Positions 17,814-33,242 of a DNA stretch of 36,907 nucleotides are shown here, piece after piece. Where the stretch lies: assembly GCA_021820105.1 (NCBI GenBank), contig JAKAED010000020.1, forward strand, positions 1-36,907. Reading direction: 5' to 3'. A model generated the notes under the pieces. It had not been told where the DNA came from. It saw only the letters and a list, made by a program, of their open reading frames with translations, and searched no databases. This DNA comes from Actinomycetes bacterium (lineage in GTDB: Bacteria > Actinomycetota > Thermoleophilia > Solirubrobacterales > Solirubrobacteraceae). Position 1 is the stretch's first letter; each line of letters starts with the position of its first letter. A program made the translations under genes and the position numbers.

Positions 17814-18974
17814 TCAGGCCCTGATCGCGAGACCGCTCGCGGGGTCAAAGAAGTGCATCAGCTCCGGTCTGACGGCGAGCCGCACACGCTCGCCATGGCC
17901 GATCTGGCCATCCGGCTCGATGCGGGCGACGCCGATTCCAGCAGCCGCCTCACCGACCTCGCGCTCCTCATCAACACCCGAGGCGTGTATGCGGCGGGCA
18001 TCAAGCTTGAAGTGCAGCAACTGCTCGGAGCCGAGCGCCTCCACCAGCTCGGTGTCCACGGCGAGCATCGAGCCCTCCGGAGTGCCGGCAACGGCAACCG
18101 AGAGGTTCTCCGGGCGCATCCCGACCACGACCTTGGCATCGGCGTACGCGCCCAGAGCCGGGCGGGCCGCACGCACGGCCGGGGGCAGCGCCAGCGTCTG
18201 CGAGCCGAGCCGCAGCAAGGTGAGGTCGGCGCTGACGGCAGCTTCATACAGATTCATCGCCGGTGAACCCATGAACCCGGCGACGAACAGGTTGTCCGGG
18301 CTGTCATAGAGCACCTTCGGCCGGTCACACTGCTGCAGCACGCCGGCGTTCAGCACGGCGACGCGGTCACCCATCGTCATCGCCTCCGTCTGGTCGTGGG
18401 TGACATACATGGTCGCGACGCCGAGCCGGCGCTGGATGCGGCTGACCTCCGCACGCATCTGCACGCGCAACTTCGCGTCGAGGTTGGAGAGCGGCTCATC
18501 CATCAGGAAGACGGCCGGCTCACGGACGATCGCGCGCCCCATCGCGACGCGCTGGCGCTGGCCGCCGGAGAGCTGAGCGGGCTTGCGGTCGAGCCATTCC
18601 GTCAGGCTGAGCACGTCAGCGGCCTCCTTCACCCGCCGCTGGATCTCATCCTTGGGCAGCTTGCGGATCGACAGCGCGAAGCCGATGTTCTCGCCAACTG
18701 TCATGTGCGGATACAGGGCGTAGTTCTGGAAGACCATCGCGATGTCCCGCTCACGCGCGGGCAGGGTGGTCACATCCCGCTCGCCGATCCGCAACGTGCC
18801 GGAGGTGATCTCCTCCAGCCCCGCGACCATCCGCAGCGCCGTGGTCTTGCCACAGCCCGATGGGCCCACGAGCACCATGAACTCGCCGTCGGCGACCGAG
18901 ATGTCAAGGTCGTGGACTGCGTGGAAGCCGTTGGGATAGACCTTGTTGATCGCGCCCAGTTCGATTGATGCCAC
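17814..18974 (-). CDS. ABC sugar importer ATPase, MsmK/UgpC/MalK type
   Basis: A 386-aa ATPase of the carbohydrate-uptake (CUT1) class. Walker A is GPSGCGKTT (37-45), the Q-loop is Q83, the signature is LSGGQ (135-139) and Walker B is VFLMDEP (155-161), followed by the D-loop SNLDAKLR and switch histidine in THDQTEAM. The C-terminal third is a TOBE/OB-like regulatory domain (VVGMRPENL), as in MalK, UgpC and the multitask ATPases MsmK and MsiK. It is the last gene after the DeoR regulator. It is the only importer ATPase in the window, although two sets of CUT1 permeases are present, so it may energise both. The start is ATG with AGGAG upstream. Confidence 0.95.
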   Translation of the reverse strand: MASIELGAINKVYPNGFHAVHDLDISVADGEFMVLVGPSGCGKTTALRMVAGLEEITSGTLRIGERDVTTLPARERDIAMVFQNYALYPHMTVGENIGFALSIRKLPKDEIQRRVKEAADVLSLTEWLDRKPAQLSGGQRQRVAMGRAIVREPAVFLMDEPLSNLDAKLRVQMRAEVSRIQRRLGVATMYVTHDQTEAMTMGDRVAVLNAGVLQQCDRPKVLYDSPDNLFVAGFMGSPAMNLYEAAVSADLTLLRLGSQTLALPPAVRAARPALGAYADAKVVVGMRPENLSVAVAGTPEGSMLAVDTELVEALGSEQLLHFKLDARRIHASGVDEEREVGEAAAGIGVARIEPDGQIGHGERVRLAVRPELMHFFDPASGLAIRA

Positions 18975-19001
18975 TGCTACTCCTGCTTTCGGTTCCCGGA
19001 C

Positions 19002-19781
19002 TCAGACACGGATGACGTTGACGCCGGCGGCCGTGAGCTCGGCAACGTGCCCCTCGTTGGCGGCCTCATCTGTGATCAGCGTGTCGATCGCCGTCACGTC
19101 GCAGATGCGGGCGAACCCGGTGCGACCGAGCTTGCTGGAGTCGGCCACGGCGATCGCGCGCGCGGCGCGCTGCACGAGCGTCGCGTTGGTCATCGCCTCG
19201 GCGTGGTCATAGGTGGTCAGCCCGCCGCGCAGGTCAAGCCCGTCCACACCCAGGATCGCGAGGTCAAGGTTGAAGGCCTCGATCGCGGAGACCGAGAGCG
19301 GTCCCGAGAGCTCAAAGGAGGCATTTCGCGCCTCGCCGCCGGAGAGGATCAGCCGGATGTTGCTGCGCGGCGCCAACTGCATGCCGATGCTGAGGCTGTT
19401 AGTGACGACCGTCAGGCGGCGGCGGCCGGCTATCGCGCGCGCCACCGCCAGCGTCGTGGTGCCGCCGGTGAGACCGACCGACGAGCCGTCGCGCACGAAC
19501 TTTGCAGCAGCGTCAGCGATCCGGCGCTTCTCCACCGGATGCTGGGAGGCGCGCTCCGCGATGGGACGCTCGACGAACCCGCCGGGCCGTCCGACCCTGC
19601 CCCATGAGCGCGCGACCGCGCCCTGCTGCTCCAGCACTCTGGTGTCACGCCTGATCGTTGCCGGAGCAACCGACAGTTGCTCAGCGAGCCACTCCACCGT
19701 CACCGGATGCGCGGCCGTCTCGACCAACTCCACGACCGTGCGCAGGCGCTCGTCGCGACCGTTGCCCTCGGGTTCACTCAT
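19002..19781 (-). CDS. DeoR/GlpR-family transcriptional regulator
   Basis: A 259-aa sugar-responsive repressor. The N-terminal winged helix-turn-helix is PVTVEWLAEQLSVAPATIRR with DTRVLEQQGAV. The C-terminal DeoR sensor domain resembles ribose-5-phosphate isomerase, with GLTGGTTTLAVARAI, NSLSIGMQL, GVDGLDLRGGLTTYD and VADSSKLGRTGF. Members usually respond to a phosphorylated sugar. I chose the ATG at 19781; the frame stays open to a TTG at 19832 that lies inside the upstream permease gene. It sits between the permease and ATPase genes of the operon it probably controls. AgaR, repressor of the aga amino-sugar genes, belongs to the same family, which fits the SIS/PfkB/aldolase genes upstream. 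Confidence 0.93.
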   Translation of the reverse strand: MSEPEGNGRDERLRTVVELVETAAHPVTVEWLAEQLSVAPATIRRDTRVLEQQGAVARSWGRVGRPGGFVERPIAERASQHPVEKRRIADAAAKFVRDGSSVGLTGGTTTLAVARAIAGRRRLTVVTNSLSIGMQLAPRSNIRLILSGGEARNASFELSGPLSVSAIEAFNLDLAILGVDGLDLRGGLTTYDHAEAMTNATLVQRAARAIAVADSSKLGRTGFARICDVTAIDTLITDEAANEGHVAELTAAGVNVIRV

Positions 19782-19800
19782 GCGTGGAGCTCGACTCTGA

Positions 19801-20649
19801 TCACTTGACACTCCCGGCAACGATGCCGTCAACGATGAAACGGTTCAGGAAGAAGACGATCAACGCCGGCACGGCGATCGCGACGATCGCGCCCGCGTTG
19901 ATCATCGTGTAGGGAACCACGTGACGGCCCGCAAGCGCGGACAGCGCGACCGTGAGCGGCTGCGTGGCGTTGGTGCTCGACAGCACCAACGGGAAGATGA
20001 ACTGCCCCCAGCCGAACAGGAAGGTGATGATCGCCGCCGCCGCCATCCCGGGACGCACGATCGGGAGCACGATGCGGCGAAAGATCTGCAGCGTGGTCGC
20101 ACCATCAATCGCCGCAGCCTCCTCAATACTCGCGGGGAGAGCCTGAAACATGTTGTACATGATCCACATCGCCAGAGGGAGGAAGCCTGAGGTGTACACG
20201 AAGATGATCCCGATGTAGGTGTTCACCAGGTGTGTGGTGGTGAGGATCTGATAGATCGGGATCAGCGTCGCGTAGACCGGGAGCGTCAGGGTCGCCAGCA
20301 CCAGGTAGAAGAGGGCGCCACGTAGACGGAAACGCAGACGCGCAAAGGCGTAGGCGCCGACCACCGCTATGACCAGTGTCAGGATCGTGGCGCCGAGGCT
20401 CTCGATCGAGGAGTTGAGCAGCGCCTGCCCGACGCCGCCGGCCGTGGAGGCACTGGAAGGTCCGACACCGAAGATCGCCTCGTAGTTGGAGAACTGCAGG
20501 TGTGTCGGAAACCAGGTTGGCGGGTTGCTCTGTGCCTCGGCGTTGGTCTGCAGGCTCGTGTTCAACGCCCAGTAGACGGGGAACAGCGACCAGAGCAGCA
20601 CCACCGCGATGCCGATCGGACGCAGCCAGCGCAGGCGTGAACGCCGCAT
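19801..20649 (-). CDS. ABC sugar importer permease, MalG-like
   Basis: A 282-aa inner-membrane protein with six predicted helices. The cytoplasmic EAA loop that docks the ATPase is EEAAAIDGAT...IVLPIVRPG. The N-terminus (LLWSLFPVYWALNTSLQ) and the ending VDGIVAGSVKx are typical of MalG/MsmG/ThuG-type CUT1 permeases. The ATG shares one base with the stop of the MalF-like gene (TGATG), so the two are translationally coupled. Its likely partners are the MalF-like permease, the binding protein at 21642-22964 and the ATPase at 17814-18974. Confidence 0.94.
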   Translation of the reverse strand: MRRSRLRWLRPIGIAVVLLWSLFPVYWALNTSLQTNAEAQSNPPTWFPTHLQFSNYEAIFGVGPSSASTAGGVGQALLNSSIESLGATILTLVIAVVGAYAFARLRFRLRGALFYLVLATLTLPVYATLIPIYQILTTTHLVNTYIGIIFVYTSGFLPLAMWIMYNMFQALPASIEEAAAIDGATTLQIFRRIVLPIVRPGMAAAAIITFLFGWGQFIFPLVLSSTNATQPLTVALSALAGRHVVPYTMINAGAIVAIAVPALIVFFLNRFIVDGIVAGSVK

Positions 20650-21581
20650 CAGTACTCAACCTTGCGGTAGATGATCTTCACGGCGAGCAATGAGAGGGCG
20701 ATCGTCGTCACCGTGGCCATCAACGAGAGCGCATAGCCGTCGCCGAAGTTGAGGTTGCCGAACGTGATCTGGTAGGTCTCACTCATCAGCGAGGAACCAG
20801 TCGAGGCGCCGGCGTTGAGCACGTACACCTGATCAAAGATGTTCAGGGACATGACCAGGCCCTCCACGACCGCGATCGCGATCCCGGGACGGATCAGCGG
20901 CAGCGTGATGCGCTTGATCGCGTGCCAGCCGTTGGCACCGTCAACGTCGGCTGCCTCGTATAGCTCTGAGGGGATCGACTGCAGGGACGCGAGCACCAGA
21001 ATCGCCGCCAGCGGCGTGATCTGCCAGACCTGCACAAGGGAGATGAAGAAGATCGTCTCCAGCTGATGGGTTCCGAGCCACAGCTGGTAGTTGTGGATCA
21101 CGCCGGCAGTCTTGAGCGTGGCGTTGAGCACACCAAACGTCGGGTCATAGATCCAAGACCAGATCACGCCCTCAACCACGCCCGGCAGCGCCCATGGCAG
21201 CACCATCAGCGCCAGGACGATCCCGCGACCGCGGAACCGGCGCTGCAGCAGCAATCCGAAGAGGATGCCGAGCCCGACCGACAGCACCACTCCAAAAACC
21301 ACGTAGATGCCGGTGTTCAGCAGGCTGGCTCGCACCTGTGCGTTATTGAAAACGTCCTGGAAGTTGCTGAACCCGGCAAAGTGTGTCGGCGGCACCAGAG
21401 CGTTGTCGTGCACAAACGCCGCGTAGGCCGTCTTGATCGTTGGATACAGCGCGAGCGCGCCGATGAAGACGAGCAGGGGCGCGACCATCGCATATGGCAG
21501 CGCGGTCTCGGCCGCGCCGCGGCGGATCGTCTGGCTCCTGTTCTGATTGGTCCGCCCGGGCAGGCGGCTGAGTGCGCTCAT
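20649..21581 (-). CDS. ABC sugar importer permease, MalF-like
   Basis: A 310-aa permease with six predicted helices and an EAA loop (ELYEAADVDGANGW...ITLPLIRPG). The FLAPMLxF-like first helix is present (YAMVAPLLVFIGALALYP), and the first periplasmic stretch contains HFAGFSNFQDVF, typical of UgpA/MalF CUT1 subunits. I prefer the ATG at 21581 over a GTG at 21611, because the latter falls within the stem-loop that separates this gene from the binding-protein gene. It overlaps the next permease by one base. Confidence 0.93.
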   Translation of the reverse strand: MSALSRLPGRTNQNRSQTIRRGAAETALPYAMVAPLLVFIGALALYPTIKTAYAAFVHDNALVPPTHFAGFSNFQDVFNNAQVRASLLNTGIYVVFGVVLSVGLGILFGLLLQRRFRGRGIVLALMVLPWALPGVVEGVIWSWIYDPTFGVLNATLKTAGVIHNYQLWLGTHQLETIFFISLVQVWQITPLAAILVLASLQSIPSELYEAADVDGANGWHAIKRITLPLIRPGIAIAVVEGLVMSLNIFDQVYVLNAGASTGSSLMSETYQITFGNLNFGDGYALSLMATVTTIALSLLAVKIIYRKVEY

Positions 21582-21598
21582 CCTGGTGAGAGGCCGGG

Positions 21599-21629
21599 GC
21601 TGGGGCCGCACAAGCGGTGCGGCCCCAGC
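21599..21629 (-). other. Intra-operon 13-bp stem-loop after the binding-protein gene
   Basis: GCTGGGGCCGCAC and GTGCGGCCCCAGC form a perfect 13-bp stem around five bases. It lies between the binding-protein stop (21642) and the MalF-like start (21581) and has no T-tract. Such hairpins can block 3' degradation or partly terminate transcription, giving more binding protein than permease. The second ABC operon has one of the same design. Confidence 0.7.
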
Positions 21630-21641
21630 ACGGAGGCTGTC

Positions 21642-22964
21642 TTACCCGCCGAGGCTCTTGACCTGCTGGGCGATCGCGCTGATCGCCGCCCCAACGGACT
21701 CACTACCGGATGCAGCCTGGTGGATGTTCGTGTAGACGGCGTTGGAGAACTGCGCATACCACGGCGGGGCGCCGGCCGGGAAGATCGGCTTCGCGTGGTG
21801 TTCGAGCAGCGCCTGCAGGGTCGCGGCACCGGGGACCTTGTGCGACTTGACGAGATCCGCAAGGCCGCCCCGGTTGGACGGCAGCGGGAAGGTGGGGATC
21901 ACGTACTTGGAGCCCTTGGCGCCTGCAAACGCGGCCTGGTTGGCAGGCTGTTCCATCCACTTCATGAACACCAGGGCGGCCGCGACATGCTTGGCCGTCG
22001 TGGGGATGCCGATGCCATCGGGGTTGCCGAGGTTGGCGCCAACACCCTTGGCGCCGGGCGTCGGGATGTAGCTGACCTGGCCGACCACCTTGGACTGCGA
22101 GGGCACGTTGTAGATCGTGCCGACGTCACCCGAGTAGTCGGAGAAGACGCTGGCGGTCACCCCGTGCGCCTGATCGGTCTCAAGCGCCTGATAGTCCTGC
22201 ATGTTGAGGTTCGCCTTGGGGACCAGGCCGGTCTTGTAGGCGTTGATCATCCAGGCCATCGCCTTGTAACCGGGCGAGGAGGGCGAGGTGAACAGCGGCT
22301 TGTAGTTGGCGCTCAACACGTTGCCGCCAAATGCTGCCGTCATCTCATACCAGTAGGTCGAGAGGCCCTCGGCCGCGGCAAATGGGATGTCCAGCGGGTT
22401 CTTCGCCGAGGTCTTGGCGGCAATCGCCTTGAGGTCGGCCTCATACTGAGTGAGTGTCGTCGGATTGCGCTTGACACCGGCTGCGTGCAGGTACTTCTCG
22501 TTCATGGTCGTGACCAGCAAGGAGCCGTCCATCGGCATCCCCAGCAGCTGGCCCTTGCGGATGAAGGCCGGTGCCTGCGGGTACTGGGCACGCACGCTCG
22601 CAAGCGGGAAGTACTTGTTCAACGGCTGGAACCACTTGGTCGCGTAGTACTCACCAACCTTCGACCAGTCGACGTCGGTGACGTCGGCGAAGTAGCTGTG
22701 CGCCTGTGCGGCCGCAGCGATCTTGGTCTGTAGCGAGTCCCACTGGACGTAGTTCCAGTTGACCTTGATGCCCGTCTGCTTGGTGAACTGCGCCAGGTCG
22801 GCCTTTGGCGCCGGATAGGCGATTGCCACGTTGATGGTGGTGCCCTTCAGCGATGACGACGCGGCCGTTGCCTTATGCGCGCTGGCGCTGCTCGCCACGG
22901 CCGCGCTGATCGCCAGCGCTCCCGTCAGTGTTGTTGCGATTCCGAATCGCCGTTTACGTCTCAT
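21642..22964 (-). CDS. ABC sugar importer solute-binding protein (family 1)
   Basis: A 440-aa extracytoplasmic sugar-binding protein. The chosen ATG has GGAGGAGCAGGAAA ahead of it; the longer open frame upstream is not coding-like. An N-terminal export signal is clear: basic MRRKRRF, a hydrophobic stretch to about residue 24 and a small-residue cleavage region near SSASA-HK. There is no lipobox, and I find no cysteine anywhere in the protein, so lipid anchoring is not possible. The mature part has family-1 SBP features such as KQTGIKVNWNYVQWD, MPMDGSLLVTTMNEKYL and FMKWMEQPANQAAF. It follows the aldolase gene by 52 bp. Substrate unknown; the neighbouring catabolic genes suggest an amino sugar or other hexose derivative. 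Confidence 0.93.
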   Translation of the reverse strand: MRRKRRFGIATTLTGALAISAAVASSASAHKATAASSSLKGTTINVAIAYPAPKADLAQFTKQTGIKVNWNYVQWDSLQTKIAAAAQAHSYFADVTDVDWSKVGEYYATKWFQPLNKYFPLASVRAQYPQAPAFIRKGQLLGMPMDGSLLVTTMNEKYLHAAGVKRNPTTLTQYEADLKAIAAKTSAKNPLDIPFAAAEGLSTYWYEMTAAFGGNVLSANYKPLFTSPSSPGYKAMAWMINAYKTGLVPKANLNMQDYQALETDQAHGVTASVFSDYSGDVGTIYNVPSQSKVVGQVSYIPTPGAKGVGANLGNPDGIGIPTTAKHVAAALVFMKWMEQPANQAAFAGAKGSKYVIPTFPLPSNRGGLADLVKSHKVPGAATLQALLEHHAKPIFPAGAPPWYAQFSNAVYTNIHQAASGSESVGAAISAIAQQVKSLGG

Positions 22965-23016
22965 TTTCCTGCTCCTCCCGATGTGCGTCTGACTGTTGCT
23001 AGGGGTCTCTCTCTGT

Positions 23017-23907
23017 TCATGCTCCTGCCACGGCCGCTGCCGCCGCGTGGCGGTAAGCGGTCGCGATGTCGAGGTAGGCGGTGGCGATCCTGTCGACCAC
23101 CTCGTCCTCGTCAATCTCTCGTCTGACAAGTGCGGCATATGGGTCGGTCCAAAGCGTCCGCCCGACCGCAAAGCCGACAAAGCCGCCGGTCGCAGCTGCG
23201 ATCTGAACCCAACGGATCACGCTCGCGCGATCCTGACCGCGGCCAAGCACCAGGCAGCCGGATTCGGCGTTGGCAGCCGCCGCGGCCGCGACTGCCGCTG
23301 CCGCCGCCGCGTCGTTGTTGCCCTCGAGCTTCCACCAGTCCGGGCGCAGGCCGTCCGCGGCGAGCTGCTCAATCGCCGCCACGGTGAGGGCGGGCCGGAG
23401 TTCGTCATCGAAACGCGTCGTGGCGGCGGCCTGTTCGGCCGTGGGTGGAACGAGGACCTCAAGCATGAAGCGATGGCTGGTGGTACGCAGGTACTCCTGG
23501 AGCCGCTTCAACTGCGTGCGCGAGCGCGCGTTGCGCTCGGCATCGCCGGCGACGTTGTAGCGGACGAGCGCCTTGACCGCGTGGGGATCGACGCGCTCGA
23601 TCGCCGCCGCAAAGCCGTCGCCGTGCTCGAAGACGAACTCGGGTTGGCCGCTGCGCTCTGACGGGATCACGACCGGAAGCTGCACCGCCGCTGCGGCGGG
23701 GATCGCGTCAACTCCGTACTCCTCATCCAGCAACAGCATCGGAGTCTCATCGGGCCCCAGTTGCGGACGTGCGCTGTCAAGCGCCCGCACACACAGGACC
23801 TTGAGCCGGCGTGCCGCAACCTCGGTTTCCGCGGCCGGTACGCCGAGCGAGGACAACCACCCGCGTAGAGAGTTGCGGTGGTCAACGGCCATGATGAAGG
23901 TCGTCAC
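23017..23907 (-). CDS. DUF2090-domain sugar-phosphate aldolase
   Basis: A 296-aa TIM-barrel protein of the DUF2090 family, the domain that forms the C-terminal aldolase half of proteobacterial IolC and is related to LacD/YihT aldolases. Family features are MAVDHRNSL at the start, LLLDEEYG, VKALVRYN, the PDWWKLEG block (Lys193, candidate Schiff-base lysine by analogy with KVE in LacD) and GFAVGRTLW. An alanine run (about 199-213) is unusual. The GTG overlaps the kinase stop by GTGA. Together with the PfkB kinase it would phosphorylate and split a ketohexose phosphate (tagatose, fructose or a deoxy-keto-gluconate type). The product assignment is inference. Confidence 0.85.
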   Translation of the reverse strand: MTTFIMAVDHRNSLRGWLSSLGVPAAETEVAARRLKVLCVRALDSARPQLGPDETPMLLLDEEYGVDAIPAAAAVQLPVVIPSERSGQPEFVFEHGDGFAAAIERVDPHAVKALVRYNVAGDAERNARSRTQLKRLQEYLRTTSHRFMLEVLVPPTAEQAAATTRFDDELRPALTVAAIEQLAADGLRPDWWKLEGNNDAAAAAAVAAAAAANAESGCLVLGRGQDRASVIRWVQIAAATGGFVGFAVGRTLWTDPYAALVRREIDEDEVVDRIATAYLDIATAYRHAAAAAVAGA

Positions 23908-24839
23908 CGTTCCACCTCCTGCATCGCGTCGACCTGCACGGCTCCAAGCGCCACCTCGTAATCGGCAGCGTCAAGTGCGCCGGCCGTGGGCGTGCTGATG
24001 CTGGCCAGCGCAGCGGCAGCGCCCTCCCGCAGGAGTTCCGGGAAGGACCTGCCTGAGCCGAGCCCGCGTGCCAGCGCCGCTGAGAAGGCATCGCCCGCCC
24101 CGATCGGGTTGCCGGCCGCCGGCGGATGCGTCACGCGCCAGCAGTCCCCATTGACGCCGATCGCTCCGTGCTCACCGAGCGTGACCACCACCGAGCCCGC
24201 TCCGAGCGCCCGCAACTCCGCGGCACCGGACAGCACATCGCTGTCCGTGGTCACCTGACGATCGAGCGTCTGTGCGAGTTCAGCTCGGTTGAGCTTGACG
24301 ATCAGCGGCCGCTCCTTGAGCGCCATGCGGAGCGCGGCGCCACGCGCGTCGAGAATCACCTGCACCCCGTGGCGGTTCGCCTGCCGGCAGAGGCCCGCGA
24401 GCGCTCGGTCGGGCGCACCGGGCGGAAGGCTGCCCGCGATCACCAAGGTGCTGATGCCGTCCAGCAACTCAGCGGTGTGGGCCTCAAAGGCGTCCCAGTC
24501 GCGTTCGGTGACAGTTGGCCCCGGCTCGTCAAAGGCCGTCGTGCTGCCGTCCTTCGCGGTCACGGTGACGGTCTGGCGCGGCGCGCCGTCAATCGCAAAA
24601 AGCTTGGACTCGATGCCCGACTGCGCCAGGTCGCTGGTGGCGTCCGCAAGCGCCGACCGTCCGATCACGCCCGTGATCAGCGTCTGCGCACCCAGACTCC
24701 GCAGGCAGCGCGAGACATTCACGCCCTTGCCGCCGGTCTGCGCGTGCGCGCGTGTGACCTTGTGCACCGCGCCGACCTCGAGGTGATCGATCACATAGGT
24801 GCGATCGACCGCGACGTTGGCGGTGACCGTGAGAATCAT
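23904..24839 (-). CDS. PfkB-family hexose-phosphate kinase (FruK/LacC type)
   Basis: A 311-aa ribokinase-fold kinase of the 1-phosphofructokinase/tagatose-6-phosphate kinase group. It opens with ILTVTANVAVDRTY, has the substrate-side signature GGKGVNVSR (36-44), the AGSLPPG segment near 135-141 and the ATP-site signature NPIGAGDAFSAA (244-255) with catalytic Asp250. Position between a SIS-domain gene and an aldolase gene, with 4-nt overlaps on both sides of the kinase gene, suggests that it makes a ketohexose bisphosphate that the DUF2090 protein then cleaves. Tagatose 6-phosphate is my preferred substrate because of the AgaS-like SIS protein; fructose phosphates are the alternative. Confidence 0.92.
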   Translation of the reverse strand: MILTVTANVAVDRTYVIDHLEVGAVHKVTRAHAQTGGKGVNVSRCLRSLGAQTLITGVIGRSALADATSDLAQSGIESKLFAIDGAPRQTVTVTAKDGSTTAFDEPGPTVTERDWDAFEAHTAELLDGISTLVIAGSLPPGAPDRALAGLCRQANRHGVQVILDARGAALRMALKERPLIVKLNRAELAQTLDRQVTTDSDVLSGAAELRALGAGSVVVTLGEHGAIGVNGDCWRVTHPPAAGNPIGAGDAFSAALARGLGSGRSFPELLREGAAAALASISTPTAGALDAADYEVALGAVQVDAMQEVER

Positions 24840-25756
24840 GCGACCGCCCCGACCTTTGCAAGCGCGAGCGCGACAGCTCCGCGCAGGGAAGCGTCGGCGC
24901 CGAAGCGGGCTCGCAGGATCTGCGGTGGAAACGGCACCGCCCTGTTGGTGAGCTCGCGGATCGCCTCGAGCACGCCCGATTCGCCGCGCATGTAGCCACC
25001 GCCGAGCGCGACCACGCTCGGGTTCAAGGCGCTGCAGAGGTTCGCCGTCATCACCGCGATCCCGGTCCAGAGTTCGTCGATGAAGCGGCGGGCGCCGGGG
25101 TCGGTCCGGGCGAGCTCGATTGTGTCGGCGACTGAGGCCGGAAGGCCCTCGCCGGCGAGCCGTCGGGCCGCTCCGGTACCGCCGAACCAGGCCTCGAAGG
25201 GGGCGATACCGTCGATCGCCATGTGCTCCTCAGGGCCGCCACGAAGGAGGCTGTAACCAACCTCACCGGCGGCGCCGTTGGCACCCGTGAGCAGCTCCCC
25301 GCGACAGATGATCCCGGCGGAGATTCCCGACCCGAGATTCAGGTAGATCCCGTCGCTGACATCGCGCAGCGACCCCCAGGTCAGCTCCGCCTGCGCGGCC
25401 ACGTGCACGTCGTTGCCGATCGAGAGGGGGAGGTCGGGGAATGCGCGCTCAACCGCTTCGGGGATCCGCAGCGCGGTCCAGCCCGGCACGTTGGTGGCCA
25501 ACTCGACCCGATCGACATGTGTGTAGCCCATGGTTGAAACGCCGATCGCGCGCACTTGCTGACCGGCGGCGAGCGCCTCGTCGTGCACCCGTTGGGCGAG
25601 CGCGAGCGCGCGCACAAGCACGGACTCCGCGCCCTCAGCGGCCAGCGTGGGAGCGTGGCTCACACGCTGGACCTCGCCGTCTGCAGTGCCGATCCCGGCT
25701 GCCAGCTTGGTCGCACCCATGTCGAGCGCCAGCACCGCTGTCGGGTCCACCGTCAA
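24836..25756 (-). CDS. ROK-family sugar kinase lacking the zinc site
   Basis: A 306-aa ROK protein without a DNA-binding domain, so a kinase rather than a repressor. The phosphate-binding motif is LALDMGATKLAAGI, catalytic Asp116 lies in GNDVHVAAQAE, and GSGISAGII follows. Two family hallmarks are missing: the GEIGH histidine is Tyr168 (GEVGY), and the CxCGxxGCxE zinc motif is absent, replaced by a short region HMAIDGIAPFEAWFGG. Some ROK members lack zinc, so activity is not excluded. TTG (25756) or GTG (25750) may be the start. It lies 4 bp after the SIS gene and overlaps the PfkB gene by ATGA. It could supply the first phosphorylation that PTS would provide in classical aga systems. Confidence 0.88.
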   Translation of the reverse strand: MTVDPTAVLALDMGATKLAAGIGTADGEVQRVSHAPTLAAEGAESVLVRALALAQRVHDEALAAGQQVRAIGVSTMGYTHVDRVELATNVPGWTALRIPEAVERAFPDLPLSIGNDVHVAAQAELTWGSLRDVSDGIYLNLGSGISAGIICRGELLTGANGAAGEVGYSLLRGGPEEHMAIDGIAPFEAWFGGTGAARRLAGEGLPASVADTIELARTDPGARRFIDELWTGIAVMTANLCSALNPSVVALGGGYMRGESGVLEAIRELTNRAVPFPPQILRARFGADASLRGAVALALAKVGAVA

Positions 25757-25760
25757 GTGG

Positions 25761-26648
25761 CTACCGATCCCCCGCCAGCACGACGGAGCGCGAGATGTGG
25801 GGCGGCTGGTCGGGATCGATCCCGCGCAGGTTCACGAGTCCCTCGGCGAAGCGATGGATGCGGACAAGCTCCGCCAGCGGATCGCCCTCGCTCCTGATCA
25901 GGCGCGCACCCGTAGCCCGGATCTGAGCGTCGATCGAGGGCTCTTCCGCGTCCAGGATCCATACGAGGCTGCGCTCGTTGATGGCTGAGATCGGCCCATG
26001 GCGATACTCCATGGTCGCGTAGGCCTCACTCCACGTAGCCAGGATCTCACGGAACTTCAGCGCCGCCTCTTGCGCGAGCGCCATGCCAACGCCGCGACCA
26101 AGGAACACGAACTGCTGGATGTCGGGCGCCCAATCGGGCAACGACTCCGTGAGATGGCGCTCGGCCCGCTTGGCCGAGCGCTCGACGTCCCAGCCGTAGG
26201 CGCCGAGCAGCAGGCTCAGCACCGTTGTGGCAAACCGGGTCTGCACGACCGAGCGCTCGTCGGCAAACGGGAGGTCGAGTTCATCGTTCAGGGTCGGACC
26301 CAGCGGCGACCCCTGCCCACCGGTGATGCCCAACACAGGGGTTCCGTGCGGCAGCGCCCTGACGGCGTCAATGATCTCCGTCGTCGTACCGGAGCGGCTG
26401 ATCGCAATCACCTTCTCCCAGGCGCGACCGGCCGGCACCTCCGAGCCCGGGAAGGCGTCGGTCTCCCCCTTACCCTGACGCTCCCTGTAGATGGCCGCCG
26501 CCTGGGCCACGTAGAGGGAGGTCCCGCATCCGAGGATGCCGACCCGCGAGCCGTCCTCCGGAAGCTTGCTCCTGAGGCCGTCCATCAGCGTTTGTGCCTG
26601 CCGCCAGATCGACGGCTGACTGGCGAGTTCTGTCGAAAAATGCGTCAC
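25761..26648 (-). CDS. SIS-domain sugar isomerase/deaminase, AgaS/FrlB-like
   Basis: A 295-aa protein with two SIS domains. Sugar-phosphate binding elements are GILGCGTSLYVAQAAA, AISRSGTTTEIIDAVRA, ITGGQGSPL and, in the second half, FLGRGVGMALAQEAALKFREI and EYRHGPISAI. The N-terminal ELASQPSIWRQ resembles the EIxQQPxLWxxT opening of AgaS, the galactosamine-6-phosphate deaminase/isomerase; FrlB-type fructosamine-6-phosphate deglycases are the main alternative. No glutamine amidotransferase domain is present, so it is not GlmS. The GTG at 26648 is preferred over an upstream start because the operator-like palindrome lies just ahead of it. First gene of the operon, followed by ROK, PfkB and aldolase genes. 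Confidence 0.85.
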   Translation of the reverse strand: MTHFSTELASQPSIWRQAQTLMDGLRSKLPEDGSRVGILGCGTSLYVAQAAAIYRERQGKGETDAFPGSEVPAGRAWEKVIAISRSGTTTEIIDAVRALPHGTPVLGITGGQGSPLGPTLNDELDLPFADERSVVQTRFATTVLSLLLGAYGWDVERSAKRAERHLTESLPDWAPDIQQFVFLGRGVGMALAQEAALKFREILATWSEAYATMEYRHGPISAINERSLVWILDAEEPSIDAQIRATGARLIRSEGDPLAELVRIHRFAEGLVNLRGIDPDQPPHISRSVVLAGDR

Positions 26649-26668: not shown

Positions 26669-26698
26669 CTGCGCAAGCTTTGAACAAATTTTGCGCAG
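26669..26698. promoter_or_regulatory. Operator-like 30-bp inverted repeat at the head of the SIS operon
   Basis: CTGCGCAA (26669-26676) and TTGCGCAG (26691-26698) are perfect inverted copies with a 14-bp AT-rich spacer. The site lies 20-50 bp ahead of the SIS start, where the promoter must be, in a GC-rich genome where such an AT-rich island stands out. The DeoR protein of the operon is the likely ligand; this is inference. Confidence 0.6.
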
Positions 26699-26770: not shown

Positions 26771-27652
26771 TCAGCTCTCCCGTTCCAGGAGAATCGCGGT
26801 CACGTCATCCGACTTGGAGAGTCTCGGGTATCGGACGAGGCTGTCAGGCATGTTCTCCTTGCCGCGAAGCCGGCCGAGGAGGTTGGCAAGGCCATGAGCC
26901 TCTGCGGAACGGATCAGCTGTGATGGCGAGTCCGCCAAAGCAAACGGCTCGATCAGTCGTTCAAAGCCGTCGGTGTAGAGCAGAATGGCCTGGATCTCGG
27001 ACAGCGCGACCCGCTGGGAGACTGTCTCGGCAGCAGCTCTCGGATCCCCTGAGACCACCCAATAGGATCCAGGCGTATTGCTCTCGGCGCGATGCTTTCT
27101 GAGCATCGGGAGGACCGCCTTGAAGGCAGCCTCCTGGTCTCCGTGCTTGCCGAGTTCGGCGGCCAGTGCGTTGGTGGCGGCGCGGTCTCTCGCCGCGAGC
27201 CGTCGGTCTGTGACCATGATGTCCGGCTTTCCGGCGCGGCGGATCACGATTGTGCAGTCGCCCAGGACGGTGGCGGCGACCGCACCAGCATCAACGAGAT
27301 ACACCAGACCGACGGTGCAGGAGAGCGCGTCGGCGGGATCGATCGAGGTCCCGCTGCGCGCCATTTGACGGAGGGCCAGATCGAACATCTGCTCTGCGTC
27401 AGGCGACCGATGGTCTTCCAGCGCGCGCAGTGCGTCAGCCGCGAACTCACCGGGTTCTCCAGCGCGCATCGGGCCGAGCGGACTGGCCCCGTCCGCGACT
27501 CCAACGAAATCCACTCCGACGCGCTTGGCGTCCTGCGTCCGCTGGCGGATGCTGTCCTCCACAGTCGTGCAGCGGAACGGTTGGCCGCCGAGCGTGAGCG
27601 AGAACGGGTCCTGCTCAGAGCCCACTTGAACCGCCCCTACAACGTGATCCAT
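26771..27652 (-). CDS. PP2C-family serine/threonine phosphatase
   Basis: A 293-aa cytosolic protein phosphatase of the PPM type. Metal-binding motifs are VGVADGASPLGP (the DGxG-like site), VLGDCTIVI (the GDS/GDC strand) and, near the C-terminus, ILLYTDGFERL and SDDVTAILLE (the DG and DD sites). It has no membrane segment or sensor domain. The ATG has no Shine-Dalgarno; TATGAT lies just upstream, and a GTG nine codons in follows GGGGCGG, so the true start may be 27625. A hairpin terminator follows the stop, so it is a separate unit from the SIS operon. No kinase partner is in the window. Confidence 0.85.
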   Translation of the reverse strand: MDHVVGAVQVGSEQDPFSLTLGGQPFRCTTVEDSIRQRTQDAKRVGVDFVGVADGASPLGPMRAGEPGEFAADALRALEDHRSPDAEQMFDLALRQMARSGTSIDPADALSCTVGLVYLVDAGAVAATVLGDCTIVIRRAGKPDIMVTDRRLAARDRAATNALAAELGKHGDQEAAFKAVLPMLRKHRAESNTPGSYWVVSGDPRAAAETVSQRVALSEIQAILLYTDGFERLIEPFALADSPSQLIRSAEAHGLANLLGRLRGKENMPDSLVRYPRLSKSDDVTAILLERES

Positions 27653-27822: not shown

Positions 27823-28473
27823 CTAATCCAGCGCCAACCGCTCACCGCCCTCGATTGCGCTCAAGAGGACGCTCTGAGGCGGAGCAAGCGGGCACAACCA
27901 GGCAGGGTCGTAGCGACAGGACGGGTGGTAGCTGAAGTTGAAGTCCAATACCAGCCGGTCCCCGACGCTCCCCAGGTCAGCCCCCTTGGCGGTGTCGAGC
28001 AGATAGCGGCCCGCACCGTAGGTCGAGTCACCGGCGGTCGCGTCACGGAACGGAACGAAGATGCCGCCCCCGTACTGCTCCAGCAGCCACACCGCCAGGC
28101 GTCCGCCGAGTGGGTCGGGCAGCTGCACCCAGCCGAGCTGACGCAGGCGGGTCGTCTCCTCAACGGCGGTGGCAACCGAATACGTGGTTGGCGTACTGAC
28201 CGGCACGAGCGGCAGCTCGAAACGCAGGCTGCGGTCATAGGGCCAGTAGGGCAGGCCCGTCACACGCAGCGGGTCGCCCGGCGTCAGTGGACTCTGCGGG
28301 TGCTCCCGAAAGAGACGATCACGACGCTCTCGCCACAGGGCGTGTGCGCGCGCTGCATCGTCGCACCGTCTCACCTCGCGGTAGAGCTCCGCAACCTGGC
28401 GACGCCAATCAAGCAGTGACAGAGCGTCCGACCCCACCGCCACGCGGCCCTGTTCCAGCTCCTCTGAGGACAT
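27823..28473 (-). CDS. DUF1684 protein
   Basis: A 216-aa soluble protein of the DUF1684 family. The diagnostic C-terminal block is LDFNFSYHPSCRYDPAWLCPLAPP followed by VLLSAIEGGERLAL. Upstream are the family segments WRERRDRLFREHPQSPL and PYWPYDRSLRFELPL. A conserved DSTYGAGRYLLD is also visible. The biochemical role of this family is not known to me. I chose the ATG at 28473; the frame is open to 28530. It lies 170 bp ahead of the PP2C gene and 93 bp after the LacI gene on the same strand, with no sign of a shared function. Confidence 0.88.
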   Translation of the reverse strand: MSSEELEQGRVAVGSDALSLLDWRRQVAELYREVRRCDDAARAHALWRERRDRLFREHPQSPLTPGDPLRVTGLPYWPYDRSLRFELPLVPVSTPTTYSVATAVEETTRLRQLGWVQLPDPLGGRLAVWLLEQYGGGIFVPFRDATAGDSTYGAGRYLLDTAKGADLGSVGDRLVLDFNFSYHPSCRYDPAWLCPLAPPQSVLLSAIEGGERLALD

Positions 28474-28566
28474 GAAGGGGGATGCTACGGGTCTGACCGC
28501 CGCAGCTGGCTGTCGCCGCCCACAGCCCAATCTGGTTGTCTGACGATAGGTACCGAGCCAGCCCGA

Positions 28567-29601
28567 TCAACGTCCGGATGCGCGATCCGGCCGTGGCCGC
28601 GGTGGACCGGTCGTCCCGCGGATCACGAGTTTTGTGGGGACGGTGACGGCGCGCTTGATCTCATCGCCCCGGAGCGTGCTTAACACTATCTGCCCGGCGA
28701 TCTCCCCCTGCCCAAGGGCAGGCTGATGGACGGTTGTCAGATCGGTCAGCTCCGCCAGCGGGTGGTCGTCGATACCGATCACGGAAATGTCGCCAGGTAC
28801 CGCAAGCCCCGCCCTGCGGAGACTGCGCATGGCCCCGAGCGCGACCTCATCCGAATGGGCATAGACCGCCGTAGGCGGCTCGCGCAGACTCAAGAGCCTG
28901 TCCATGGCCGCAGCACCTTCAGCACCGCCCCAACGGGTGGTCTCCACGAGCTCAGGATCGGCTTCGATGCCGGCATCAGCCAACGCCGCGAAATATGCCT
29001 GCGAGCGACCGGCCGGGGGCACCGGTTGATCAGGGTCGTAGGTTTCGATCATCGCGATTCGTCTGTGACCCAGGAATGTCAGGTGATCCATGGCCTGACG
29101 TCCCGCGGCGAAGTCGTCTATGCACACGTAGGGATATGAAGCATGCTGACCCCCGGCGGCGATGATCGCAACGCCCATCAATGCCAGCCGGCGTTGCTCC
29201 TCCTCATCGACCGGGAACGCGAGCACAACCACAGCGTCGACCTTGCGCCGAGCAGGTAGCCGCTCAAAGAAGTCGCGCCGGTCGTGAAGGTCGCCCACGT
29301 GGTAGAGCAGGACGTCCATGTCAGCTTCTCGCAGGACCGCTTCCAGCCCCTCAAGCAGCGACGCGAAGAACCAGCGTGAGATGTGCGGGACCACCACGGC
29401 AACGCGGCCGGTCGTGCCGGTGGCAAGACGCGAAGCCTCTGGCGAGACGACGTAGGAGAGCTGCTGCGCGGCCGCAAGCACCCGCTGCCGTGTGTCAGGC
29501 GCAACTCCCGGGGCGTTGCTGAGCGCCCGGGAGGCCGTGGCCATCGAAACCCCGGCCAGCGTTGCGACCTCGGCCATCGTCGGATGATTGTCGCTGCCCA
29601 T
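28567..29601 (-). CDS. LacI-family transcriptional repressor
   Basis: A 344-aa regulator. The N-terminal helix-turn-helix and hinge are PTMAEVATLAGVSMATASRAL and SPEASRLATGTTGRVAVVVP. The C-terminal sugar-binding domain shows VCIDDFAAGRQAMDHL, GHRRIAMI and ISVIGIDDHPLAELTDLTTV, all standard for the family. It is divergent from the ABC/alpha-glucosidase operon. Two perfect LacI-type operators lie directly ahead of its ATG and a third covers the -10 box of the divergent operon, so it very probably represses both itself and that operon. TATGAT ends 8 bp before the ATG, so its mRNA may have little or no leader. Confidence 0.96.
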   Translation of the reverse strand: MGSDNHPTMAEVATLAGVSMATASRALSNAPGVAPDTRQRVLAAAQQLSYVVSPEASRLATGTTGRVAVVVPHISRWFFASLLEGLEAVLREADMDVLLYHVGDLHDRRDFFERLPARRKVDAVVVLAFPVDEEEQRRLALMGVAIIAAGGQHASYPYVCIDDFAAGRQAMDHLTFLGHRRIAMIETYDPDQPVPPAGRSQAYFAALADAGIEADPELVETTRWGGAEGAAAMDRLLSLREPPTAVYAHSDEVALGAMRSLRRAGLAVPGDISVIGIDDHPLAELTDLTTVHQPALGQGEIAGQIVLSTLRGDEIKRAVTVPTKLVIRGTTGPPRPRPDRASGR

Positions 29602-29615
29602 CGCGGACGATCATA

Positions 29616-29653
29616 TTGCAAACGCTTCCAAGAAATTTTGCAAGCGTTTCCAA
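29616..29653. promoter_or_regulatory. Tandem LacI-type operators (O1, O2) at the lacI-type promoter
   Basis: TTGCAAACGCTTCCAA (29616-29631) and TTGCAAGCGTTTCCAA (29638-29653) each fit TTGNAANCGNTTNCAA, the LacI/CcpA-like palindrome with central CG. They start 22 bp apart, about two helical turns, on the same face. They cover the promoter region of the repressor gene. Confidence 0.85.
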
Positions 29654-29757
29654 TCACATTCTCAGTGCCCGCACAGGAACTACGTCTCCGCAAACCGGCC
29701 GCTGAGAGCGGCTCGGAAACAGGTCATGAAGAACGAGATATTCACCGTGTTGGGCTC

Positions 29758-29781
29758 CTGTTAGCCGATTTTTACTAACAG
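29758..29781. promoter_or_regulatory. 7-bp inverted repeat in the divergent region
   Basis: CTGTTAG (29758-29764) and CTAACAG (29775-29781) flank 10 AT-rich bases. It does not match the LacI operators and lies between them and the SBP promoter. It could bind a second regulator such as the GntR protein, or form a hairpin ending a short lacI-antisense transcript. Confidence 0.4.
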
Positions 29782-29904
29782 TTGCCTAACCGATGGACCG
29801 GGTTGCAGCTGTTTTGGCCTATCGCCCAGGGCGGCGCCCTCTTGGGCCCACCAAATACACTCGACGGCCACGGGTCGGATGCGACGAGATCCCTAAACAA
29901 CCCC

Positions 29905-29945
29905 TTGACACGCAACTTGTACTCACTTACTGTAAGCGTTTCCAA
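29905..29945 (+). promoter_or_regulatory. Sigma70 promoter of the alpha-glucoside operon with overlapping LacI operator O3
   Basis: TTGACA (29905-29910), a 17-bp spacer and TACTGT (29928-29933) form a near-consensus promoter. CTGTAAGCGTTTCCAA (29930-29945) overlaps the -10 box and start site and matches O2 in its last 12 bases. Bound repressor would block RNA polymerase directly. The leader before the ATG is about 55 bases. Confidence 0.85.
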
Positions 29946-29996
29946 AGGCTTGGGGCAGTTCTCAGAGCCGCAACACAACAGTTAGGAAGGGGAGAG

Positions 29997-31337
29997 ATGA
30001 ACAAAGAGACGCGCTCCGTGTCTCGATCCTCCGTTGGAGGTCGTCGGCGCGTAGCCAGCCGTATGGCTGTGTTGTTGTCAGTTGCCACAGGGGTCGCCGG
30101 ATTTGCAGCAACCGGTGCGTCCGCCTCGTCCGCACCGGTCACGATCAAGATGTTTTCCGGATCGGGCCTTGCCAAGGTCAACCAGGCGCTCGCAACGGCG
30201 TTCAACAAGTCCCAGCACGGCGTCAAGGTTGTGCTGCTGACTGTCCCCGATGCCGACTACAACACTGCGCTTCCGCGAGATCTCCAGTCAAGCGCCGGCC
30301 CTGACGTGGCCGCCCCGGCCGCGCTGGTCCAGGAGGTTGCAGACCATCAGCTGCTCAACCTCAACAGCTACGCAAAGCAGTACGGATGGACCAAGAAGTT
30401 CTCCAAGCAGGCGCTGGCCCCCGGTCGCGTCAACGCCCACGGCGTGATCGGAACCAACGGTTCGCTCTACATGGCGGGTGGCCAGGCAGGGGTTGTGACC
30501 GGCATCTTCTACAACCGGGCGCTGCTGGCCAAGCTGAACCTGACGGTTCCCAAGACCCTGGCTCAGTTCGGTGCTGATCTGAAGGCCGCCAAGGCAGCAG
30601 GCATCACACCGATCGTCGCCTCCAACGCCGACGGCCTGACGGGTCACCTCTTCGACATGCTCCTTGGCGACTACATGGGCGCCCGGAAGATCGACAACGT
30701 GATCAACAACGTCCCGGGCTCAACGGTCAACACGCCGGGGGCTGTGGCAGCCGCGAACCAACTGGCCTCTTGGATGTCCGCCGGATACTTCAACTCGGAC
30801 GCCAACGCGATCCAGCAGACACAGTCCTACCAGGAGTTCGGCGCCGGCAACGGGCTGTTCTTCATCAGCGGCTCCTGGATCGAGAGCGGCGGCAACTTCC
30901 CGGCCTCATTCCAGTACGGGATGATGCCGTTCCCGCCGCTGCACGCCGGTGGCCCGTACTCCGCGATGGAGAGCAACGCCCTGGCATTTGCGATCTCGGC
31001 CAAGTCGAAGCACCAGGCCCAGGCAGCCGAGTTCCTGAACTGGCTCGGCTCACGCAAGGCCGCCAAGGTGTACGTGAAGGTCGGAGGCGGCAACGCACTT
31101 GGACTGGCAAAGATCACAGCGCCGTCCTTGAGCGCCTCACTCACAAAGCAGACGGAGAACATCTACCAGCTCGTGCAGAAGGACAACGGCGTGCTCAACT
31201 GGTTGCAGAACCAGGGCACCACCGTGAACGCCGACTATCCTCCGCAGCTCCAGCTGCTGATGGCCGGTAAGACAACTGGCTCGGCGCTGATTCAGAAGCT
31301 CGAGTCCGACGTTCAGGCTGACCGCCAGGCGGCCTAG
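29997..31337 (+). CDS. ABC sugar importer solute-binding protein (family 1)
   Basis: A 446-aa extracytoplasmic binding protein. The ATG follows AGGAAGGGGAG, and promoter and operator lie upstream, so the longer open frame to 29793 is rejected. The N-terminus is a long basic export signal (RRRVASRMAVLLSVATGVAGF, split here by about 20 basic residues before the hydrophobic core) with a cleavage region near GASASSAP. No lipobox and no cysteine are present. The mature protein shows SBP family-1 features: KMFSGSGLAKVNQALATAFNK, YNRALLAKLNLTVPKTLAQF, AFAISAKSKHQAQAAEFLNWL. First gene of the LacI-controlled operon; with a GH13 glucosidase downstream, the ligand is likely an alpha-glucoside or malto-oligosaccharide. 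Confidence 0.95.
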   Translation: MNKETRSVSRSSVGGRRRVASRMAVLLSVATGVAGFAATGASASSAPVTIKMFSGSGLAKVNQALATAFNKSQHGVKVVLLTVPDADYNTALPRDLQSSAGPDVAAPAALVQEVADHQLLNLNSYAKQYGWTKKFSKQALAPGRVNAHGVIGTNGSLYMAGGQAGVVTGIFYNRALLAKLNLTVPKTLAQFGADLKAAKAAGITPIVASNADGLTGHLFDMLLGDYMGARKIDNVINNVPGSTVNTPGAVAAANQLASWMSAGYFNSDANAIQQTQSYQEFGAGNGLFFISGSWIESGGNFPASFQYGMMPFPPLHAGGPYSAMESNALAFAISAKSKHQAQAAEFLNWLGSRKAAKVYVKVGGGNALGLAKITAPSLSASLTKQTENIYQLVQKDNGVLNWLQNQGTTVNADYPPQLQLLMAGKTTGSALIQKLESDVQADRQAA

Positions 31338-31357
31338 CCTCAAAGCAGCCTGCGACA

Positions 31358-31388
31358 GTGACGGCCCCGCGAACGGCGGGGCCGTCAC
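31358..31388 (+). other. Intra-operon 13-bp stem-loop after the binding-protein gene
   Basis: GTGACGGCCCCGC and GCGGGGCCGTCAC form a perfect 13-bp stem with a 5-nt loop (GAACG), 20 bases after the binding-protein stop and 53 bases before the permease ATG. There is no T-tract. It matches in stem length, loop length and position the hairpin of the other ABC operon. Confidence 0.75.
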
Positions 31389-31441
31389 TCAGCAGCCGAG
31401 CGCAGCGCGGCTTCCTGCAAGACCCCGTCCACTCCGTCTCC

Positions 31442-33186: not shown

Positions 33187-33198
33187 CGGACCATGCAG

Positions 33199-33222
33199 AC
33201 CGACACCGACACCGACACCGAA
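33199..33222 (+). repeat. Hexanucleotide microsatellite (ACCGAC)x4 before the GH13 gene
   Basis: ACCGAC is repeated three times exactly and a fourth time as ACCGAA. It lies in a 19-codon frame (ATG at 33193, MQTDTDTDTDTEHK...) whose TGA overlaps the GH13 GTG as GTGA. Copy-number change in steps of six would not break the frame. The frame may be incidental, since the GH13 gene has its own AGGAG. Confidence 0.6.
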
Positions 33223-33242
33223 CACAAGAGGAGCCTGACGCA

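Follow-up and report, generated by a model that had tools for sequence, protein, structure and literature searches.

A conserved nine-gene operon of a Solirubrobacteraceae bacterium, with a predicted DUF2090 aldolase, probably for the breakdown of a galactose-like amino sugar

Gene content and conservation of the operon

Contig JAKAED010000020.1 of the Actinomycetes bacterium assembly GCA_021820105.1 (family Solirubrobacteraceae), 36,907 nucleotides (nt) long and referred to here as the window, carries on its minus strand a nine-gene unit (17814-26648) that encodes an SIS-domain protein, a ROK kinase, a PfkB kinase, a free-standing DUF2090 protein, the binding protein and two permeases of an ATP-binding cassette (ABC) importer, a DeoR-type regulator and the ATPase (Table 1). 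This gene set of a soil bacterium, whose genome assembly (G000; 4.0 Mb, 264 contigs) is 88.9% complete, probably serves the import and degradation of an amino sugar resembling galactose. The original prediction, made from the letters of the window, had placed the four enzyme genes at 23017-26648; they are found there on the minus strand, all with Pfam matches above cut-off, in an interval that covers four of the nine genes of the unit. The importer that it also proposed is represented by binding protein, permease and ATPase genes downstream on the same strand. The ROK/PfkB and PfkB/DUF2090 pairs each overlap by 4 nt and the gap between SIS and ROK is 4 nt. The DUF2090 protein, free-standing by Pfam, is encoded separately from the kinase as predicted. 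The start of the SIS gene was taken as the GTG at 26648; a longer open reading frame (ORF) runs from 26687, and the ORF of the orthologue in a second genome of the genus (G254) opens at the codon matching 26648.

Table 1. Genes of the unit and its candidate operator, with their positions in the window
Feature	Position	Strand	Match	Proposed role
SIS-domain sugar-phosphate protein	25761-26648	minus	PF01380, 44 bits, above cut-off	proposed galactosamine-6-phosphate deaminase/isomerase
ROK kinase	24836-25756	minus	PF00480, 111 bits, above cut-off	proposed amino-sugar 6-kinase
PfkB kinase, 1-phosphofructokinase (1-PFK)/LacC subfamily	23904-24839	minus	PF00294, 126 bits, above cut-off	proposed tagatose-6-phosphate kinase
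Free-standing DUF2090 class I aldolase (predicted)	23017-23907	minus	PF09863, 122 bits, above cut-off	proposed tagatose-1,6-bisphosphate aldolase
ABC sugar-binding protein	21642-22964	minus	PF01547	
ABC permease 1	20649-21611	minus	PF00528	
ABC permease 2	19801-20649	minus	PF00528	
DeoR-family regulator	19002-19832	minus	PF00455 + PF08220	
ABC ATPase, UgpC/MsmX type	17814-18974	minus	NF008653, 450.9 bits against a cut-off of 432	
TGCGC-ended repeat, directly upstream of SIS	26670-26697	minus		candidate DeoR operator

The operon is real and conserved. Among the 28 genomes of the genus, SIS proteins of at least 80% identity occur in three (G000, G254 and G163). All nine genes are present in G254 (locus L038) in the same order, at 57-85% identity; in G163 the unit is split over two contigs that each end inside it, one with SIS, ROK and part of PfkB (L265) and the other with the genes from DUF2090 to the ATPase (L054). 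Since gene order is kept in both genomes, the arrangement is not due to chance. The binding proteins of these two units are 77 and 80% identical to that of the window. When the three DUF2090 proteins of this cluster were used to scan contigs of at least 3,000 bases from one genome per species (84,980 species), the best 80 loci comprised one at 67%, on the same G254 contig (L163; PLES01000059.1, a Solirubrobacterales metagenome-assembled genome from bog, isolate bog_593), and 79 at no more than 33% over the best segment. The lineage of the cluster aldolase looks narrow on this evidence. Gene ends in the related loci described below are approximate, because simple ORF calling misplaced many starts in this GC-rich DNA.

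The DUF2090 protein

The DUF2090 protein has 296 amino acids and a single domain, with no Pfam match besides PF09863 at E ≤0.001; a match to DeoC/LacD (PF01791) is absent at the same threshold, which places the protein outside the LacD family proper. An AlphaFold model based on a 34-row alignment of the window protein and its relatives' proteins has a mean confidence score (pLDDT) of 95.9 and a TIM-barrel fold of LacD type. It matches LacD structures with Z scores of 27.5-28.3 (best 3mhg, Z 28.3, 2.5 Å over 272 residues), followed among other enzymes by a sulfohexulose-1-phosphate aldolase (27.9), YihT (26.4) and a class I fructose-1,6-bisphosphate (FBP) aldolase (24.2), and Foldseek E-values favor YihT by a small margin over the sulfohexulose and LacD enzymes. 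Residues D9, K112, E150, K193, E195 and R250 align with LacD and YihT, and K193 occupies what we take to be the position of the Schiff-base lysine. Because of its LacD/YihT-like fold and the aligned active-site residues, the DUF2090 protein is expected to function as a class I aldolase, while the fold of the model does not decide which substrate it prefers. With LacD it thus has in common the fold and the active-site Asp, two Lys, Glu and Arg, but identity is about 20% and the Pfam family is a different one. Lys126 and Glu164 of LacD are named as catalytic (PMC9007349).

At E 0.001, DUF2090 was found in 50 of 299 genomes of the class, in 47 of them above cut-off, and in the genus 20 of the 28 genomes have it above cut-off. 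The other genes of the class mostly belong to a second free-standing type, 33-39% identical to the window protein and mostly not adjoining genes of the SIS operon. This second type, perhaps an FBP aldolase, is widespread in class and genus (L034, L045, L063 and others), and in the genus it often lies beside an ORF of 366 amino acids. In the phylogenetic tree the three proteins of the cluster stand as a clade of their own (support 100/99), separate from the domains fused to IolC (100/99; the fusion was verified in all ten database rows) and from an 18-row clade of free-standing proteins (95/91). At the 16 alignment columns that split IolC-fused from free-standing domains, the cluster agrees with the free-standing proteins at 11, with IolC at two and with neither at three.

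These data bear on a possible connection with inositol, in which the DUF2090 protein would act as 2-deoxy-5-keto-gluconate-6-phosphate aldolase. That role has been proposed for the IolC-fused DUF2090 domain (PMC9007349), and the window protein shares with these fusions both the Pfam domain and a PDWWKLE motif. It differs from them in being free-standing, in forming a separate clade and in its signature columns; the PfkB kinase of the operon scores 43 bits against the 300 of the IolC model; and IolB was not found in any of the three cluster genomes (G000, G254 and G163), whereas it was found at 339.5 bits in a control genome with an IolC-DUF2090 fusion. An inositol-type pathway is therefore so improbable that it need hardly be considered. 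Elsewhere, the Polaromonas plasmid pPNAP02 carries a free-standing DUF2090 gene (L093:11974-12942) within a pentose-phosphate set (transaldolase, transketolase, gnd, phosphoketolase), where it is annotated as an inositol-pathway aldolase domain.

The aldolase position in related operons

A survey of 396 genomes of the phylum for the SIS protein (E 1e-25) gave 29 positive genomes including that of the window, and 30 non-window loci from the other 28 were examined. They hold a class II aldolase (GatY/KbaY-like) in 18 cases, a LacD-like class I enzyme (PF01791) in one (L154) and DUF2090 in none; no such aldolase was detected at the remaining 11 loci, some of which are cut by contig ends. By sequence match, SIS, ROK, PfkB and class II aldolase genes occur together at four of the 30. 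In Kitasatospora NBC_00039 the order is nagA, DeoR and SIS-ROK-PfkB-class II aldolase, and Arthrobacter Rue61a has the same run of SIS, ROK, PfkB and aldolase genes. The first three genes and their order are those of the window; ROK and PfkB overlap by 4 nt in both, and PfkB and the aldolase by 4 nt in Rue61a and 10 nt in Kitasatospora. These operons, annotated by domain names, differ from that of the window in their class II aldolase as against the class I DUF2090 protein, and in the nagA near the Kitasatospora set. Since the class II aldolase sits in the slot of DUF2090 in operons of the same order, the DUF2090 protein stands at the place of a ketose-bisphosphate aldolase, which agrees with its earlier assignment as an aldolase and with the predicted route of kinase, SIS protein, second kinase and bisphosphate aldolase fed by ABC uptake.

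Two other genera of the family show a similar association. In G184 and G198, the DUF2090 gene is divergent from a GH4-PfkB-PfkB-DeoR set (GH, glycoside hydrolase), with SIS and ABC genes nearby and, at the G184 locus, also a GH114-like match. We regard it as firm that DUF2090 occupies the bisphosphate-aldolase place of a galactosamine-type gene set here and in these two genera. Their DUF2090 proteins, 37 and 39% identical to that of the window, group together (95/99) apart from the cluster clade, with the branching order of the two groups not settled by the tree. When the tree was reduced to 25 rows by leaving out the long LacD and YihT sequences, the pair joined other free-standing DUF2090 proteins (97/96), apart from the cluster, and a constraint that holds the cluster and the pair together was not rejected (p 0.068). 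Two separate recruitments of DUF2090 seem likely from these trees, a claim that is weakened by the constraint test.

The SIS protein

The original prediction likened the SIS protein to AgaS; membership of that family is not supported. All its NCBIfam scores are below cut-off, and it scores higher with GlmD (74 of 580 bits), GlmS (69) and NagB-II (52 of 430) than with AgaS (TIGR02815; 33 of 529). In the tree it falls in a 43-row actinobacterial clade (96/96), called the SIS family below, that lies outside AgaS, FrlB, GlmS and NagB-II-like proteins, the AgaS and FrlB branches being very long. Its closest kin are the proteins of L260, L261 and L262 (98/87), of which the first two adjoin ROK and NagA genes and the third ROK and GH27 genes. 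Most named near relatives are amino-sugar-6-phosphate deaminases or synthases, with putative phosphosugar isomerases among the PDB entries as well. The window protein retains the motifs ALKxxE and RHGP; the lysine of the former is conserved in the SIS family and in AgaS and is a threonine in FrlB. Near the C-terminal tail, several actinobacterial members have an arginine (SRSVVL, TRSIVL) where PDB 1j5x has a lysine.

A fructosamine route through an FrlB-like deglycase, also suggested by the original prediction, would draw on the SIS superfamily that FrlB and the window protein have in common. Deglycation yields glucose-6-phosphate, after which a second kinase and an aldolase have no role. The FrlB model PRK11382 is not among the five NCBIfam matches of the SIS protein at E ≤0.001, the ALKxxE lysine is replaced in FrlB, and FrlB stands outside the clade of the SIS family, though on a very long branch. 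Fructosamine catabolism thus seems very unlikely. On model scores, the ALKxxE lysine, the SIS tree and the absence of IolB, the fructosamine, inositol and strict AgaS readings were set aside.

Glucosamine is the other candidate to which the SIS protein might point, GlmD being its top NCBIfam match. As a GlmD-like glucosamine-6-phosphate deaminase it would supply a phosphofructokinase (PfkB) and a DUF2090 FBP aldolase, the last perhaps also glycolytic; a LacD structure with bound fructose-1,6-bisphosphate exists (PDB title 5f2g). In favor of this reading, searches for a class II aldolase found none in G000 and G163; nor did they in G160, G278, G210, G111, G103 and G118, but the enzyme is present alongside DUF2090 in G254, G139, G218, G198 and G047; G160 and G278 have neither, and G160 has a DeoC/LacD-family gene. 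Because G000 is incomplete, missing aldolases prove little. The glycolytic class I family (PF00274) was matched in none of ten genomes, but this search matched none of its own controls either, so that the idea of DUF2090 as sole housekeeping FBP aldolase gains no weight from it. Galacto-type hydrolases near SIS family genes, described below, speak against glucosamine, as does a second SIS protein in members of the genus: it adjoins the family SIS in L263 and L261 and lies one gene away in L264, it matches NagB-II best in L263 and L264 (215 and 210 bits, below the cut-off of 430), and that of L261 groups with these two in the tree. In these members a family SIS acting on glucosamine-6-phosphate would duplicate the NagB-II-like protein close to it, and we consider glucosamine improbable. 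A second SIS protein lies next to the family SIS and ROK, or a short way off, at L260, L261, L263 and L264; of these loci, L260, L261 and L264 also contain NagA.

Nature of the sugar

The orthologous operon of G254 (contig L163) includes, between the DeoR and ATPase genes, a GH27 gene (L163:11331-12887; PF16499, 75.5 bits; PF17801, 43 bits). The relatives of its product in the PDB are alpha-galactosidases, alpha-N-acetylgalactosaminidases and a beta-L-arabinopyranosidase. A second GH27, 44% identical to it, is flanked in G670 by SIS-ROK on one side and on the other by a binding protein that shares 58% identity with that of the window; no GH27 was found in the window or in the retrieved part of the G163 unit. 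Both proteins have a glutamate in the alignment column that we take to be that of the C2-hydroxyl-recognizing Glu of alpha-galactosidases, where such a residue would accommodate a hydroxyl or a free amino group more readily than an N-acetyl substituent. This alpha-galactosidase-family gene agrees with the earlier choice of a non-acetylated amino sugar as leading candidate. A Pfam scan of the window proteins detected no deacetylase in the operon, as predicted, and NagA genes above cut-off lie elsewhere in G000 and G163, G254 having weak partial matches only.

Hydrolases were counted near 36 SIS loci (30 of the phylum, six of the genus) and in 49 control neighborhoods of the second DUF2090 type. 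GH4, GH27 or GH114 genes occur at 8 of the 36 and at none of the 49, and NagA at seven and none, respectively. The control set was drawn from 53 loci, leaving out two cluster loci (L038, L054) and two with SIS-pathway genes (L077, L086), both of which hold GH4 and the first also a GH114-like match; L087 is in neither set. Of the GH4 proteins, six of the seven scanned pass the NCBIfam alpha-galactosidase cut-off (that of L137 was outside the scan), the Deinococcus protein scoring 468.8 of 486. Among the GH114 matches, only that of L259 was confirmed by Pfam; L150 and L077 were assigned from their 26-31% identity with a Deinococcus protein. The SIS locus of Deinococcus psychrotolerans has two genes annotated as endo-alpha-1,4-polygalactosaminidases, together with a class II aldolase and PfkB. 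A GH114-family gene is also present elsewhere in G000; the family search (PF03537) matched its T. maritima control, and PF03537 may cover GH191 too. In the literature, a GH191 member of T. maritima is described, GH114 is said to act on galactosamine polymers, and galactosaminogalactan is given as composed of galactose, N-acetylgalactosamine (GalNAc) and galactosamine, and Pel of GalNAc and galactosamine (PMC12054363).

From these neighborhoods, the sugar is read as galacto-configured, with galactosamine first and galactose second; glucosamine, fructosamine and inositol fit worse than either. Plain D-galactose, as the main rival, would be turned by ROK into galactose-6-phosphate and by SIS, as an isomerase, into tagatose-6-phosphate, with PfkB and DUF2090 following, in a bacterium feeding on alpha-galactosides. 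This agrees with the GH27 gene of an orthologous operon, with the Glu at the presumed C2-hydroxyl column of both GH27s, with the GH4 scores and with an operon free of deacetylase. It accords less well with the names of the near SIS relatives, mostly amino-sugar-6-phosphate deaminases or synthases, and with the recurrence of NagA and GH114 near SIS family genes, GH114 being active on galactosamine polymers (PMC12054363). Galactose appears unlikely as the principal substrate, and galactosamine is preferred.

Several points weigh against the galactosamine interpretation. The operon of the window itself has no deacetylase or glycosidase, and GH27 and GH4 are alpha-galactosidase-type families that are suited to plain galactose as well. 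None of GH4, GH27 and GH114 occurs at 28 of the 36 SIS loci, and in an open tally of 120 neighboring proteins (from 137 ORFs, long and some shorter ones having been dropped by hand) the six GH4 proteins are outnumbered by eight methyltransferases and by seven major facilitator superfamily transporters. The hydrolase families were picked after being seen, the loci are related, and the control loci come from the class while the SIS loci come mostly from the phylum. L259 and L262 had moreover supplied query proteins; without them the count is 6 of 34 against 0 of 49 (Fisher p 0.004). The neighbors of the Deinococcus SIS protein count for less, as this protein branches with AgaS and not within the actinobacterial clade (98/85, on a long branch). 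Finally, the SIS protein is far from AgaS by NCBIfam score and tree, and the cluster form of DUF2090 is present in three genomes of one genus only.

Kinases and regulator

The ROK protein is below cut-off for all 13 of its NCBIfam matches, and its PDB relatives include glucokinases and N-acetylmannosamine kinases. The resemblance of PfkB to tagatose-6-phosphate kinase, claimed earlier, agrees with its best PDB match, LacC (2awd), but only the broad model TIGR03168 (1-PFK/LacC subfamily) is passed (257.7 against 216.4 bits), the LacC model TIGR01231 giving 150.5 of 409.55 bits, below cut-off. In the tree it groups with PfkB proteins of other SIS loci (93/86). AgaR is the best NCBIfam model of the DeoR protein, as expected of an AgaR-family repressor, but the score of 183 bits is below the cut-off of 260. 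The repeat TGCGCAAAATTTGTTCAAAGCTTGCGCA (26697-26670) occurs once in the window when up to three mismatches are allowed and never in 100 shuffles, and its TGCGC arms and TGT/AA core are kept in all three orthologous units. DeoR is its probable binder. It was not found, with one strict pattern, around the GH114 (L274) or NagA (L257) loci of G000, so that no wider regulon is supported. A scan for promoters and terminators gave nothing above shuffles.

Proposed pathway and relation to known systems

The computation shows which genes are present, that their order is conserved, the fold and catalytic residues of the aldolase, the exchange of aldolase types between related loci and the recurrence of galacto-type hydrolases nearby; from this we infer the sugar, each reaction and the regulation as follows. 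The operon would be self-contained, importing and degrading an amino sugar of galacto configuration, on balance D-galactosamine from alpha-linked glycans. Galactosamine would be brought in by the ABC importer, phosphorylated by ROK to galactosamine-6-phosphate, deaminated and isomerized by SIS to tagatose-6-phosphate and phosphorylated again by PfkB to tagatose-1,6-bisphosphate, which the DUF2090 class I aldolase would cleave to dihydroxyacetone phosphate and glyceraldehyde-3-phosphate, the unit being controlled by DeoR via the repeat upstream of SIS. Of the pathway as first predicted, the route logic, ABC uptake and the DUF2090 aldolase are supported, and AgaS membership and the fructosamine option are not; nor is an inositol pathway.

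The Aga/Gam pathway is described as proceeding from the 6-phosphate through deamination/isomerization to tagatose-6-phosphate, a second phosphorylation and aldol cleavage (PMC12118421). The proposed route shares this order of steps with that pathway (AgaS, LacC, LacD or GatY/KbaY), and its DeoR protein is nearest to AgaR; it differs in the ABC importer and ROK kinase that replace the phosphotransferase system, in an SIS protein outside AgaS, in the DUF2090 aldolase and in the lack of a deacetylase in the operon. It is probably a variant of the known galactosamine route in which the aldolase has been swapped for a member of a family so far tied mainly to inositol breakdown. A second function of DUF2090, the cleavage of ketohexose bisphosphates, becomes testable in this way. 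If it is true, free-standing DUF2090 genes are misnamed, such as those on two plasmids that are annotated as inositol-pathway aldolase domains, and a function is assigned to a galactosamine-type gene set found, by its SIS gene, in 29 of the 396 phylum genomes sampled.

A broader and more speculative possibility, to which we give limited credence, is that these loci are parts of an unrecognized system scavenging alpha-linked galactosamine-rich polymers such as fungal galactosaminogalactan and bacterial Pel. GH114-type endo-galactosaminidases and GH27/GH4 alpha-galactosidases would release galactosamine and galactose for ABC import and for a modular set of kinase, SIS, PfkB and aldolase, in which different enzymes would stand in for one another at the first kinase step (ROK, a BadF-type or a PfkB-type kinase) and at the aldolase step (class II, LacD-like or DUF2090), and DUF2090 would have been recruited, perhaps twice, as tagatose-1,6-bisphosphate aldolase. 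Known degraders of these polymers (GH114, GH191, GH135, GH166) have their counterpart in the GH114-family genes near some SIS genes and elsewhere in G000; those enzymes are polymer hydrolases, whereas the operon of the window would handle the freed sugar. Should the link hold, it could be tested whether galactosamine-rich polymers of biofilms and fungal walls are consumed by this route.

Neighboring genes

The operon is directly preceded, on its own strand, by a weakly PP2C-like gene (26771-27652) and a DUF1684 gene (27823-28530). The window also contains a second sugar uptake set (28567-34949) with a LacI regulator, a binding protein, two permeases and an alpha-amylase-family enzyme.

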